From the NCBI GenBank assembly GCA_022760475.1, contig JALEFZ010000086.1, forward strand, positions 1-64,000: a DNA stretch of 64,000 nucleotides. The letters run 5' to 3'. The position numbers and the translations under genes are program-made. The notes beneath the pieces were generated by a model. It saw only the letters and a list, made by a program, of their open reading frames with translations. It was not told where the DNA came from and did not search any database. Source of the DNA: Bacteroidia bacterium. Its GTDB lineage: Bacteria > Bacteroidota > Bacteroidia > J057. Positions 16,710 to 24,850 of this stretch are shown here, in pieces. Each line of letters opens with the position of its first letter. Position 1 is the first letter of the stretch.

Positions 16710-18626
16710 ATGCGTTTTCTTTTGCTCATGGCTTTTTTAGTTACAGGACTTTGCACCTTTGCTCAAGATCTTGAGGAAACTCCTCCTGCTACTGAAAAAG
16801 ACTTCGTGCGTTTTTGCATGGAGGTTTATAAGCGTGTTCGAACTAGTCCCATAAAAAGTAAAGAAGAGGGAGAGACACTTTTGGAAATAGCTCGCGAAAG
16901 ACGTTGGCCCTTTGGAGAGGTTTGGCTCATTCTGGCTCGCTCTCACTGGTATTTGGGCGATTACAATGATTCCCGGGAATACTTCAGAGCAGCCCTTGAT
17001 TCTTATGAGAAGAAAGATGACAAAGATGGAATGGCCCGAGCTTGGGAAGGCCTGGGGATGGTCCAATGGCGCCTGGGTAATTTTCCAGGAGCGAATAAGT
17101 ATCTTTTTGAATCTCTTAATGTAAGGGAAGCCCATCAGGACAGCCTGGGTTTGATTGACAATTATTATTGGCTTGGAGTATTGCAGGCTGATTTGGGATC
17201 CTATAAAGAGGCAAGGGATTATTATCACAAAGCGCTATATCTGGCTCAGGTTCTTGGAGAAGTACATAGGGAAGCAGACATTTTTAATGTGATCGGACGC
17301 ACATGGCGAAAGCAAGGAGTTTATGAGAAAGCTTTGCAAGCCCATGCAGTTTCGGCCCCTATTTACGAAGCCTTAAAAGATTCCTTGGGGCTATCTGATT
17401 ACTACAATAATGTAGGGAGTATTTACCGGAGGCAAGGCCGCTACAATGATGCGCTGGCTCAATTTTTTAATGCCCTTTACATTCAGGAAAAATTACTGGA
17501 TAAAGAAGGACTTGCAGATGGATATAATGACATCGGTACCACCCTTATGCAAAAGGGAGACTTTGAAGGCGCCATTAAGTATCTTGAACTTGGTTTGAAA
17601 ACAGCTCGGGAGATTTATTTGCTTGACGATGTTCGTTACGCCTATAAGAGCTTGGCCTCTGTTTACGACTCTCTTGGTAATTACCAACTTGCTTTCGAAT
17701 ACCACAAACTATTCACCCAGGTAAAAGACTCTATTTATGCCTTGACCAACAATGATATCATCAATCAGCAACGTTTTGACTACGAATGGCAAAAGGCACA
17801 TGAGGCAAGGGAAAAGGAGGAGGAGATCAGGCGGGAACGGGCTCGAAATTTTATTCTTATTGTGATTGGCCTTTTGGCTCTCGCTGGGGGAGCTGTTGCT
17901 TTTTTCTTTTGGCAAAATCGATTGAATGCCCGTATCAATAGGCAATTAGAAGCCAAGAATATCCTCATTGACCTTCAAAGGGATCGGGCAGAAAAATTAT
18001 TACTCAATATCCTGCCTGAAGAAATTGCCAATGAACTGAAATCAAATGCTTCTGGCAAGGTAAAGGCCAGAAGCTATTCTTCGGTCACAGTTATGTTTGT
18101 CGATTTTAAGGGTTTTACTCAGATTTCCGAAGTGCTTAGCCCCCGTGATCTTGTGAGTGAGTTACATTTTTGTTTTCGGAATTTTGACGAGATCGTGGAT
18201 AGTTACGGCATAGAGAAAATCAAAACCATTGGGGATGCCTACATGTGTGCAGGAGGACTTCCAGCGGAGGATAATGAGCACGCCCGCAAAACTGTACGCG
18301 CTGCCATGGAAATTCAGCGTTTCATGGAAAGCTATAAAGCTGATCGGATTCAAATGGGCCAGCCTTATTTTGAAGCCCGAATTGGGGTTCATTCTGGCCC
18401 CGTAGTAGCTGGTGTGGTAGGATCTCGAAAATTTGCCTATGATATTTGGGGGGATACTGTGAATACTGCCGCCCGCATGGAATCAGCAGGGGAGGTCGGC
18501 AAGGTCAATATATCATCATCTACCTACAAACTGGTTAAAGACCTTTGCATTTGTACCCACAGGGGTAAGGTCCATGCTAAAAACAAGGGTGATATCGAAA
18601 TGTATTTCGTGGATTGGACCATGTAA
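16710..18626 (+). CDS. TPR-containing class III adenylate cyclase
   Basis: This 638-residue signalling protein has a signal sequence (RFLLLMAFLVTGLCTFA) and an external part made of about six or seven TPR repeats (residues ~75-360). Then come a short coiled coil, a transmembrane helix (ILIVIGLLALAGGAVAFFFW, ~390-410) and a C-terminal class III cyclase domain. The metal-binding Asp residues are in MFVDFKGF and GDAYMCAGG. The adenine-selecting pair appears as Lys in EKIKTIGD and Asp in AYDIWGDTVN. The catalytic Asn and Arg follow in NTAARMES. The active site is complete, so it should make cAMP in response to a signal sensed by the TPRs. Confidence 0.9.
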   Translation: MRFLLLMAFLVTGLCTFAQDLEETPPATEKDFVRFCMEVYKRVRTSPIKSKEEGETLLEIARERRWPFGEVWLILARSHWYLGDYNDSREYFRAALDSYEKKDDKDGMARAWEGLGMVQWRLGNFPGANKYLFESLNVREAHQDSLGLIDNYYWLGVLQADLGSYKEARDYYHKALYLAQVLGEVHREADIFNVIGRTWRKQGVYEKALQAHAVSAPIYEALKDSLGLSDYYNNVGSIYRRQGRYNDALAQFFNALYIQEKLLDKEGLADGYNDIGTTLMQKGDFEGAIKYLELGLKTAREIYLLDDVRYAYKSLASVYDSLGNYQLAFEYHKLFTQVKDSIYALTNNDIINQQRFDYEWQKAHEAREKEEEIRRERARNFILIVIGLLALAGGAVAFFFWQNRLNARINRQLEAKNILIDLQRDRAEKLLLNILPEEIANELKSNASGKVKARSYSSVTVMFVDFKGFTQISEVLSPRDLVSELHFCFRNFDEIVDSYGIEKIKTIGDAYMCAGGLPAEDNEHARKTVRAAMEIQRFMESYKADRIQMGQPYFEARIGVHSGPVVAGVVGSRKFAYDIWGDTVNTAARMESAGEVGKVNISSSTYKLVKDLCICTHRGKVHAKNKGDIEMYFVDWTM

Positions 18627-23015: not shown

Positions 23016-23057
23016 AATATGAATTAGCTGGGATTGGAAGGTCAATCTCTAGGTATT

Positions 23058-23187
23058 ATGATCTATTTGTATCATATTTTCAAATATGACTCAAATAGAT
23101 CATTTTTTTATCTATGTTTCTTTTTTAACATATTTGAGAATATGATTTATATAGAGCATATTTAGGAAAATGATGCATACGAATCAT
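23058..23187 (+). promoter_or_regulatory. Five phased operator-like dyads upstream of satD
   Basis: Five 18-bp elements of the form ATG-N12-CAT start at 23058, 23086, 23114, 23142 and 23170, exactly 28 bp apart. Four read ATGAY...RNYCAT (for example ATGATCTATTTGTATCAT and ATGATGCATACGAATCAT). The middle one is degenerate (ATGTTTCTTTTTTAACAT). The 10-bp linkers are AT-rich and differ. The last element ends 2 bp before the satD start codon. A repressor or co-operative regulator, most simply the helix-turn-helix of SatD itself, is the likely binder. Confidence 0.75.
23059..23109 (+). terminator. Possible terminator of the epimerase gene, overlapping operators
   Basis: TGATCTATTTG (23059-23069) pairs perfectly with CAAATAGATCA (23092-23102), with further pairing inside (ATATTT with AAATAT), and is followed by seven T residues. 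The foldback is AT-rich and is built from the first two operator dyads, so the sequence may serve both roles. Confidence 0.5.
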
Positions 23188-23189
23188 AA

Positions 23190-23870
23190 ATGAAGACAAG
23201 ACAATATGCAGCGATAACAGGGGATATTGTAGGATCTTCTCACTTGAGAAAGGGGGAGAGGGAGAAGCTATTGACCTACTTGAAAACGATTTTTGATGAG
23301 ATAAAAGAGAAATGGGGAGGTGAACTGGAGCAGGAGTTTGATATGTCCAGGGGAGATAGTTTTCAAGCTTTGTTGAATAATCCGATTTCTGCATTGAGGA
23401 TAGTTTTATTTATCCGATTGAAATTATTGGCAGATGAAGAACGGAAATACCCGGAGAGTTGGGATGCCAGGATAGCGATTGGAATAGGAGCATTAGATTT
23501 TAAAGGAAATGAGGTAGCCACCTCGGATGGAAGAGCATTTAGAAATTCAGGTCCAGTGCTTGATAAAATGAAGGGGAAGGAACGGATTCGAATTAAGTCT
23601 GATGATGATGAGTTTAATGCAGAGATGAAAGTCGCCAGTTTGTTTTTGGATGCAGTCGCGGCAAGGTGGACTGATGGCCAGGCCTTGGTTATGCTGGAAA
23701 AGTTGGAAAAACTGGATAAGGTAACCCAAAAGGAAATTGCCAAAGCCTTGAATATGAAGTACCAATCAACAGTAAGTCGAATGTTAAGCGATGCACATTG
23801 GGAAGCTGTAGAGGAATTGATTAAGAGATATGAAAGTTTGACCGCCAGATTAGATAAAGAGACTGAGTAA
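23190..23870 (+). CDS. SatD-family protein with cyclase-like fold and HTH
   Basis: This 226-residue protein matches the poorly characterised SatD family: ITGDIVGSS at residues 9-17, RGDSFQ at 54-59, ARIAIGIG near 93, SDGRAFRNSG near 112, and a C-terminal helix-turn-helix (TQKEIAKALNMKYQSTVSRM). The N-terminal motif order resembles class III nucleotide cyclases. D12 and D56 are 44 residues apart, as are the metal-binding Asp residues of mammalian adenylate cyclase. Other catalytic residues are not clearly conserved, so the domain may bind rather than make a nucleotide. The operator array upstream suggests self-regulation. The membrane protein gene starts 11 bp downstream and is probably in the same operon. 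Confidence 0.75.
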   Translation: MKTRQYAAITGDIVGSSHLRKGEREKLLTYLKTIFDEIKEKWGGELEQEFDMSRGDSFQALLNNPISALRIVLFIRLKLLADEERKYPESWDARIAIGIGALDFKGNEVATSDGRAFRNSGPVLDKMKGKERIRIKSDDDEFNAEMKVASLFLDAVAARWTDGQALVMLEKLEKLDKVTQKEIAKALNMKYQSTVSRMLSDAHWEAVEELIKRYESLTARLDKETE

Positions 23871-23881
23871 AGACTAGATAA

Positions 23882-24850
23882 ATGGATTTTATATTACTCC
23901 AGGACATGGATAAAGCAGCATATTTAAATAGTTGGGCAGAGTTGGCAAGGATATTTTTGCCATACTTATTGATCAGGTTTACCCTTCAAAGAGATTCCTG
24001 GGTGAATAAAAAAAAGGAGAAGATTATATGGATCTTACTGGAGGCATTGGTCATTGGGATTTCAACCTGGATTCTCTGGGGCAGAATGGAGGAACTTCAA
24101 ACCATTTGGGTCATTCCTATTATGACAGTGGTTTATAGTTTAGTTGAGAAATGGAGACTGTCAGTTGAAGAAAAATATGAGAAAACGGAGAAGAAACACG
24201 ATGATGCGAAGGAAAAATATGAGGACAAACTGAAGGATGAAAAAGCTAACAAAGAAGAAATTCAGGAGGTGAGTAGTTTAGTTGAAGCGCTAGGCAATGA
24301 AACGAGCAAAAGATATCGCAGGAAAACGTGGGTTATTCTTACTGGAATACTAATCTGCATAGTTGTATTGACCAGCTATTGGATTTTGAGTGATTTAGCT
24401 AGGCAAAATTCGCAAGAAGTAAATTTAAAAGTCTTAAAAGATAGTTTTAGCTTCATACATAAATCTGAATTTTGGCTGCTGGCTTTGGGGTATTTCATCA
24501 TCTGGGGACCGACAGGTTACATCATGAAGATCATCACCATCCCTTGGCAAAGAGAGCTTCCAAAGAAAAATAAAGGCCTACCCAACGCAGGGCGATGGAT
24601 AGGCATACTGGAGAGAACATTGGTCTTGTCATTTGTCTTGATAAACTCTGTTTCTGCCATCGGTCTACTGATCGCAGCGAAATCTGTCCTCCGCTTTGGG
24701 GAAATTAAGGAGGCTGATAACCGAAAAGAGGCTGAATACATCCTTATTGGAACACTGCTGAGTTTCACCATTGCCATAGCAGTGGGAATCTGGCTAAACG
24801 CTACAGTCGGCGACACAATCAAGGATATACTTGAAGGTAAAGGATTTTAG
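23882..24850 (+). CDS. Multi-pass membrane protein with coiled coil, SatD partner
   Basis: This 322-residue protein is not recognised. Two or three hydrophobic segments occupy residues ~15-90. A highly charged helix rich in Glu and Lys (about 95-145, with repeated EKYE/EKKH-like heptads) should be a cytoplasmic coiled coil. Four more transmembrane segments follow (~147-170, 195-215, 238-263, 280-300). SatD genes are often paired with a DUF3307 membrane protein, but this one does not look like that family. The 11-bp gap from satD indicates an operon and a shared job. The next gene is convergent and ends 8 bp away. Confidence 0.7.
   Translation: MDFILLQDMDKAAYLNSWAELARIFLPYLLIRFTLQRDSWVNKKKEKIIWILLEALVIGISTWILWGRMEELQTIWVIPIMTVVYSLVEKWRLSVEEKYEKTEKKHDDAKEKYEDKLKDEKANKEEIQEVSSLVEALGNETSKRYRRKTWVILTGILICIVVLTSYWILSDLARQNSQEVNLKVLKDSFSFIHKSEFWLLALGYFIIWGPTGYIMKIITIPWQRELPKKNKGLPNAGRWIGILERTLVLSFVLINSVSAIGLLIAAKSVLRFGEIKEADNRKEAEYILIGTLLSFTIAIAVGIWLNATVGDTIKDILEGKGF

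Follow-up and report, generated by a model that had tools for sequence, protein, structure and literature searches.

The window analysed here is a stretch of 64,000 nucleotides, in which two neighbouring genes on the same strand, separated by a gap of 11 nt, are preceded by an array of palindromes. A preliminary description had placed two open reading frames at 23190-23870 and 23882-24850, and both were recovered at these positions. The features of the locus are as follows:

23057-23191, strand not assigned: putative operator array of five imperfect 20-bp palindromes, with the same architecture before homologs
23190-23870, + strand: satD, 226 aa, SatD family, predicted cyclase-fold domain plus HTH
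23190-23609, + strand: predicted cyclase/palm-fold domain of satD, residues ~1-140 (D12, D56, R94, G114-x-A116, S120-G121)
23667-23804, + strand: C-terminal HTH of satD, residues ~160-205, covarying with the operator half-site across homologs
23882-24850, + strand: membrane partner gene, 322 aa
23882-24403, + strand: N-terminal half of the partner, a degenerate DUF3307-like region plus a coiled coil (residues ~77-174)
24464-24832, + strand: C-terminal membrane domain of the partner (NAGRWIGILER...AAKSVLRFGE...EYILIGT), with all invariant residues retained

The product of the first gene was matched by the SatD profile PF16264 over residues 6-199 (45.7 bits against a cut-off of 29, E = 7.7e-12), and its C-terminal HTH was indicated by weak HTH profile matches and was also seen in the structure model. 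The family takes its name from the sat operon of S. mutans. The open-access full-text literature searched yielded nothing on the structure or mechanism of SatD or DUF3307, and the cyclase fold, the array at its own promoter and the membrane partner are additions made here to the SatD family. The window protein carries the motifs ITGDIVGSS (D12), RGDSF (D56), DARIAIGIG (R94, G98, G100) and DGRAFRNSG (113-121), the first two being present as described, with 44 residues between D12 and D56. Among 24 diverse SatD homologs, D12, D56, Q59 and R94 are invariant, and S16, R54, G55, G114, A116, S120 and G121 are at least 90% conserved; in a larger set of 79 sequences the invariance of RGDSFQ is partly a matter of construction, because the loci were collected with a pattern ending in RGDSFQ.

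The proposal that SatD joins a class III cyclase-type domain to an HTH, which an unrelated predicted fold was to have overturned, is backed by the structure model, the fold searches and the sequence profiles, all of which returned the cyclase fold. The AlphaFold2 model, built from 79 sequences, has a pLDDT of 94.7 and a pTM of 0.92. Its top match in the PDB by Foldseek was 7r65, a Pycsar cUMP synthase (E = 2.7e-5), with class III adenylyl and guanylyl cyclases next, many of them below 1e-3; in VIA-align, chains of GGDEF proteins, class III cyclases, Cas10/Cmr2 and GTP cyclohydrolase III were tied at Z scores between 10 and 10.7. A profile of 24 SatDs retrieved the class III cyclases Ma1120 (E = 1.2e-4) and 3mr7 (1.3e-4), and weakly CyaB (0.08). 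When SatD was aligned by hhalign with the cyclases of related genomes, a set including the canonical cyclase in the window, D12 was paired with D15, D56 with D59 and R94 with R107 (E = 1.5e-5, probability 79%), in an alignment that ends ahead of the block carrying the class III catalytic Asn and Arg. Both hmmsearch and hhalign aligned D12 and D56 with the metal-binding Asp pair of the cyclases. As judged from the model, the N-terminal domain of SatD adopts the palm fold shared by class III cyclases, GGDEF proteins and Cas10.

In the class III cyclases of the relatives, N135 and R139 are invariant, whereas SatD, aligned by hand on the GD/SDG motif, has no Asn; position 118 is variable (R118 in the window), and position 122 is Arg in 42 of 79 sequences and Pro (P122) in the window. 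Two blocks had been likened to those of cyclases, and the resemblance of ARIAIGIG stands, R94 being aligned with the R-x-GI block, whereas that of DGRAFRNSG to N-x-A-x-R fails at the catalytic positions. The window SatD was matched neither by Pfam Guanylate_cyc (PF00211), searched up to E = 1, nor by PF00990 (GGDEF), its signature being RGDSF and not GG[DE]EF. On the sequence evidence, the palm and the two metal-binding Asp residues appear conserved and the class III transition-state residues do not, which makes nucleotide binding, or some other reaction, more plausible than canonical cyclisation, the latter being doubtful because the transition-state Asn is absent. With Asn not conserved, Arg partly kept and Guanylate_cyc not matching, the cyclase activity first envisaged finds little or no support. 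Binding of a nucleotide by the N-terminal domain seems reasonably likely, and catalysis by SatD unlikely.

A canonical class III cyclase is encoded about 5 kb upstream of satD (16710-18626, + strand), whose domain at 18060-18611 is matched by PF00211 (E = 9.3e-54) with a full N-x-x-x-R, and eight such domains occur in the genome. Class III cyclases are abundant in seven genomes (G000 and six relatives), in which no GGDEF domain (PF00990) was detected at E <= 0.001.

The fold bears on an alternative that gives SatD nucleotidyl cyclase or polymerase activity, perhaps confined to molecules aligned on the operator array, with a product that would open or restrain the membrane partner in the manner of Pycsar or Panoptes. 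Cas10 and GGDEF enzymes, which share the fold, function without the class III Asn and Arg, and this lends weight to the alternative together with the top Foldseek match to a Pycsar cUMP synthase and the retention of the metal-binding Asp pair in every SatD homolog aligned; the absent transition-state Asn and the variable Arg weigh against it.

Directly 3' of satD lies a homologous membrane-protein gene. It is present at 78 of 80 close homologs (76 from an initial search, plus two truncated by contig ends) and at 38 of the 40 loci of the even sample, in total 116 of 120, so that the loss of the partner beside homologs, named beforehand as a ground for abandoning the pairing, was not what was observed. 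This nearly constant membership in the satD operon also agrees with the reading of SatD as an active enzyme. The helices and the coiled coil attributed to the partner reappeared in its model, which is all-helical with about six membrane helices and in which two long helices form a coiled coil at residues ~77-174. Short partners of ~90-150 aa from Agrobacterium, a haloarchaeon and Sphingomonas consist of the C-terminal domain only, which identifies this helical domain (G..IG.LER ... AAKS..RF ... EY.LIGT..S) as the conserved core.

In most partners the C-terminal domain is preceded by a DUF3307 half whose conserved residues, H, D, H, H, D, K, D, Q and H, make up a canonical His/Asp set resembling an active or metal site. 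In the window partner all nine hallmark positions are changed (H28Y, D32R, H54E, H85Y, D89E, K92R, D155G, Q156I and H159C) and a coiled coil of ~100 residues is inserted, with the invariant C-terminal residues intact; it is the longest of 76 aligned partners, the others measuring 234-272 aa, and the DUF3307 profile (PF11750) reaches only 14.6 bits, below its cut-off of 23. A second alternative takes SatD as a transcription factor that answers to nucleotides or to stress, for example of acid or of the envelope, and controls a membrane enzyme or transporter without toxicity (DUF3307 hydrolase-like). The His/Asp-rich canonical half, which suggests an enzyme, is in favour of this account, but the window partner has lost the set while the pair was retained.

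No solved structure resembling the partner was found in the PDB by Foldseek, VIA or sequence profile; the BAR-domain rows of the fold search were attributed to the coiled coil, and a podovirus DUF3307 model matched the partner fold with a probability of 1.0 but an E value of 0.46. Neither a cyclic-nucleotide-binding nor any other nucleotide-binding domain was recognised in the partner by Pfam, PADLOC or sequence profile, which is difficult to reconcile with a partner gated by a nucleotide product of SatD. The closest relative of the window pair is locus L035 (G012:C414), where the partner is 56% identical over residues 193-305 and has a reduced N-terminal half, and the neighbouring SatD ends at the contig edge.

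The array noted earlier upstream of satD proved to be real, showing both 28-bp repeats and a dyad agreement above that of shuffles. Palindromes resembling TATGAT-N8-ATCATA start at 23057, 23085, 23113, 23141 and 23169, in steps of 28 bp, and the last adjoins the satD start codon. The dyad agreement is 0.81 over the five copies, against a maximum of 0.73 in 60 shuffled upstreams; direct repeats of 28 bp are present, and five 20-bp palindromes are the better description. With at most one mismatch allowed, the window motif has 11 occurrences in the genome; three belong to the array, and a search for other promoters with the operator gave no second cluster in that genome. In one Bacteroides relative, three exact operator sites all lie within its own satD array. 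By this computation the operator is confined to the satD promoter, a privacy which would also suit the regulation of a non-toxic partner.

Similar arrays of 28 or 29 bp precede SatD genes across Bacteroidota, with single cases in other phyla and archaea. A lag score, calculated over 24-34 bp, of at least 0.7 was obtained for 31 of 79 satD upstreams, as compared with 3 of 292 control upstreams of the same loci, and every satD array of the 79-locus set scoring at least 0.65 has a period of 28 or 29 bp. In a second, evenly drawn sample, 24 of 40 loci had an array scoring at least 0.6, with a period of 28 bp in 15 of them and of 29 bp in the other 9. The dyad model gave an agreement of at least 0.75 for 80 of 119 satD upstreams versus none of 60 shuffles, about one third of the satD upstreams being without a clear array. 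The more distant TITLGDEFQ-type SatDs are likewise preceded by similar arrays, and array-like sites occur in some loci of Vibrio, Agrobacterium, Sphingomonas and haloarchaeal plasmids. In one Bacteroides genome SatD operons occur twice, at G250:C3:981865-982473 and G250:C2:291687-292298 (L201 and L202), the operator sites of the second being different and weaker.

Of 62 arrays, 36 have the Bacteroidota -7 box TAnnTTTG 3' of the last dyad, mostly at 6-28 nt, which implies that the operator probably overlaps the promoter and that repression is likely; in the window no clear box of this kind follows the array. An upstream array may equally serve activation, and repression of its own operon by SatD is regarded as the probable mode of action.

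The half-site is TATGAT in the window and AATCAACC, TATAAG, TATCGG, TATTCC or TATAGT in other lineages, and the recognition-helix region varies alongside it (SAQNISKLL, QSAVNQRKK, QSSVSERHK, QNAVSKRQK and QPSVHQRLQ). Across 62 loci, HTH identity and half-site identity are correlated with a partial r of 0.51 given N-domain identity (permutation p = 0.001), kinship being accounted for solely through this covariate, and the partial r for distant pairs is 0.52. Since the half-site covaries with the HTH of SatD, the protein very probably reads its own array; this covariation appears to be the strongest new evidence of the analysis on the point, and binding of SatD to the array is predicted with high confidence.

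SatD homologs were found in 98 of 395 genomes drawn from the phylum, usually as one copy per genome, a patchy presence unexpected for a homeostatic regulator. A fixed chromosomal neighbourhood of the operon in Salegentibacter, Gillisia and Christiangramia and in two Salinivibrio species is, conversely, in favour of such a role, and a fixed housekeeping neighbourhood in some genera counts against a SatD that restrains a toxic partner, because it is unusual for addiction modules. In pEC34A (3770 bp) the pair is the near-sole cargo, and this carriage on small plasmids, together with insertion within type I R-M operons, again disfavours a homeostatic role; the pEC34A case also speaks for a SatD that restrains its partner. 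Small enterobacterial plasmids of 3.8-4.4 kb hold a divergent satD-like gene and a DUF3307 gene as almost their sole cargo, such as L065 (pEC34A, NC_019077.1, 1792-3481) and L066 (K. pneumoniae NZ_LR890364.1). No E. coli genome with the pEC34A or E. kobei pair was found.

A survey of the neighbours of homologs for defence islands, which the preliminary description had recommended, gave a divided answer. On plasmids, the pair is in some cases accompanied by AAA+/helicase pairs that recall Gabija, by a TIR protein and by a Pycsar set, and in others by HipA and AbiEii-type genes. In L080, L097 and L144, hsdS and hsdR of a type I R-M operon flank satD and its partner, all of them pointing the same way, whereas L122 and L125 have the pair next to hsdS and hsdM; type I R-M genes were nearby in 6 of 80 close homologs and in none of the 40 evenly sampled loci or 80 controls, and this link is a minority association only. 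On the Sphingomonas insulae plasmid NZ_CP048421.1 (L073), the pair is flanked on one side by an AAA+/helicase pair and a TIR protein and on the other by a Pycsar operon.

A defence island in the window itself was considered and rejected, as PADLOC on the 46 window ORFs returned generic matches (DndA/SspA-type, mad and TPR) and PycC models, the latter probably stemming from the canonical cyclase at 16710-18626. A general enrichment, in which 118 neighbour genes matched 205 PADLOC families and 118 random genes matched 63, is unusable as an effect size because redundant HsdS models inflate it and the control held a cas1/Qat region. SatD gave no match in phages and 3 matches among 2.9 million viral contigs. 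The earlier comparison with cyclase plus membrane-effector defence pairs is accordingly disfavoured, as no defence neighbourhood surrounds the window pair and only a minority of homologs stand in defence contexts. The defence linkage of the operon is weak, and a role in defence is doubtful.

Taken together, the locus may be read as a self-regulating, toxin-antitoxin-like operon in which SatD is a nucleotide-sensing repressor restraining a membrane effector, a reading given about an even chance. SatD would be a dimeric DNA-binding regulator; through its HTH it would read the tandem palindromes ahead of satD, most likely with cooperative repression of the operon as the outcome, and its N-terminal domain would bind a metal-nucleotide between D12 and D56 as a sensor, possibly with slow turnover. 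A change of this nucleotide in stress or infection would then release the operon, the partner or both. The partner would be a membrane effector acting via its conserved C-terminal helical domain; the DUF3307 half appears decayed in the window genome, with the coiled coil in its place, and most genomes keep the His/Asp half. Toxicity of the partner could fall either way. What the computations bear out is the fold, the metal-binding Asp pair, the linkage of the partner, the array, its covariation with the HTH and its confinement to one promoter, and reading of the DNA by SatD is thereby well supported; repression as opposed to activation, the nucleotide ligand, the toxicity and the trigger are inferred. 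The degrees of likelihood expressed here, from array binding to the defence role, are judgements and not computed values.

A pangenome study of S. pyogenes (PMC11323703) reports just one accessory gene that scored as essential in every strain tested, namely satD, which is present in 178 of 249 genomes; this would be expected if SatD restrains a toxic neighbour. The S. pyogenes SatD is distant from that of the window, and its accessory status could partly be an annotation artefact.

The reading of SatD as an enzyme whose product acts on the partner is rather unlikely: some satD loci do adjoin defence genes, but these neighbours are a minority and are absent from the window, and a general HTH with an array at its own promoter is foreign to Pycsar and Panoptes. 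The account of SatD as a transcription factor for a non-toxic partner is held to be quite unlikely; the sat genes of S. mutans are tied to acid tolerance, as cited in PMC11323703, which suits it, and the accessory but essential satD of S. pyogenes in the same paper does not. Least probable is a nucleotide-signalling addiction or defence module, in which SatD on its own phased array would sense or make a signal, repress the operon and restrain a membrane toxin released when phage or stress disturbs the nucleotide, the lineage-specific half-site co-evolving with the HTH.

SatD (PF16264) and DUF3307 (PF11750) are widespread in bacteria and archaea, and the pair is now given a predicted fold with a candidate active site and a regulatory logic with predicted operators in about 100 genomes. 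Restraint of the partner by SatD would offer a testable reason for satD being accessory yet essential, and the HTH and half-site pairs constitute a ready data set to decode HTH specificity. If a cyclase-fold domain senses or makes nucleotides on DNA, it would form an unusual link between transcription factors and cyclic-nucleotide immunity.

In comparison with known systems, SatD resembles class III cyclases (PF00211) in its fold, the first metal-Asp motif (GDIVGSS in SatD, TDIEEST in the cyclases), the GD hairpin and R-x-GI-x-x-G, and differs from them in lacking the Asn of N-x-x-x-R (R118/P122) and a Guanylate_cyc match and in its fused C-terminal HTH. With GGDEF diguanylate cyclases only the fold is shared, SatD having neither their signature nor a PF00990 match. 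The systems nearest in the way they work are Pycsar (PMC11224242) and Panoptes (PMC12657218). Pycsar (PycC plus PycTM) likewise couples a cyclase-fold gene to a membrane-protein gene, and PycC is the best structural match to SatD; SatD, however, has no PycC profile match (no PADLOC family up to E = 1) and possesses an HTH and an array, and its all-helical modelled partner has no Pfam or PADLOC match to the cyclic-nucleotide-binding part of the PycTM and PycTIR effectors. In Panoptes (OptS mCpol plus OptE S-2TMbeta), a palm-fold protein similarly stands beside a membrane protein and a restraint-type logic is possible; with regard to an mCpol domain, SatD shares the palm fold with Cas10 and returned no family match. 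The family profiles differ, the SatD partner is all helical without strands or a beta domain, and SatD has the HTH and the array. The SatD pair is thus separated from both systems by its effector, and from Pycsar by the cyclase profile too.

Homologous partners carry the DUF3307 half (PF11750), and the window partner shares the C-terminal domain with them, its own N-terminal half being below the cut-off with the nine hallmark residues lost. Type II toxin-antitoxin systems are resembled in the regulator gene placed first, the adjacent or overlapping second gene, the promoter palindromes, the implied autoregulation and the carriage on plasmids, and the array and the HTH covariation point to a DNA-binding first gene with palindromic operators at its own promoter, as in those systems. 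The pair departs from them in that the putative antitoxin is a palm-fold nucleotide domain, the putative toxin is a membrane protein and three to five operators are phased at 28-29 bp. Because of the gene order, the operators at its own promoter and the HTH, an autoregulated, antitoxin-first anatomy accounts for the SatD operon no less well than does a defence pair of cyclase and effector.
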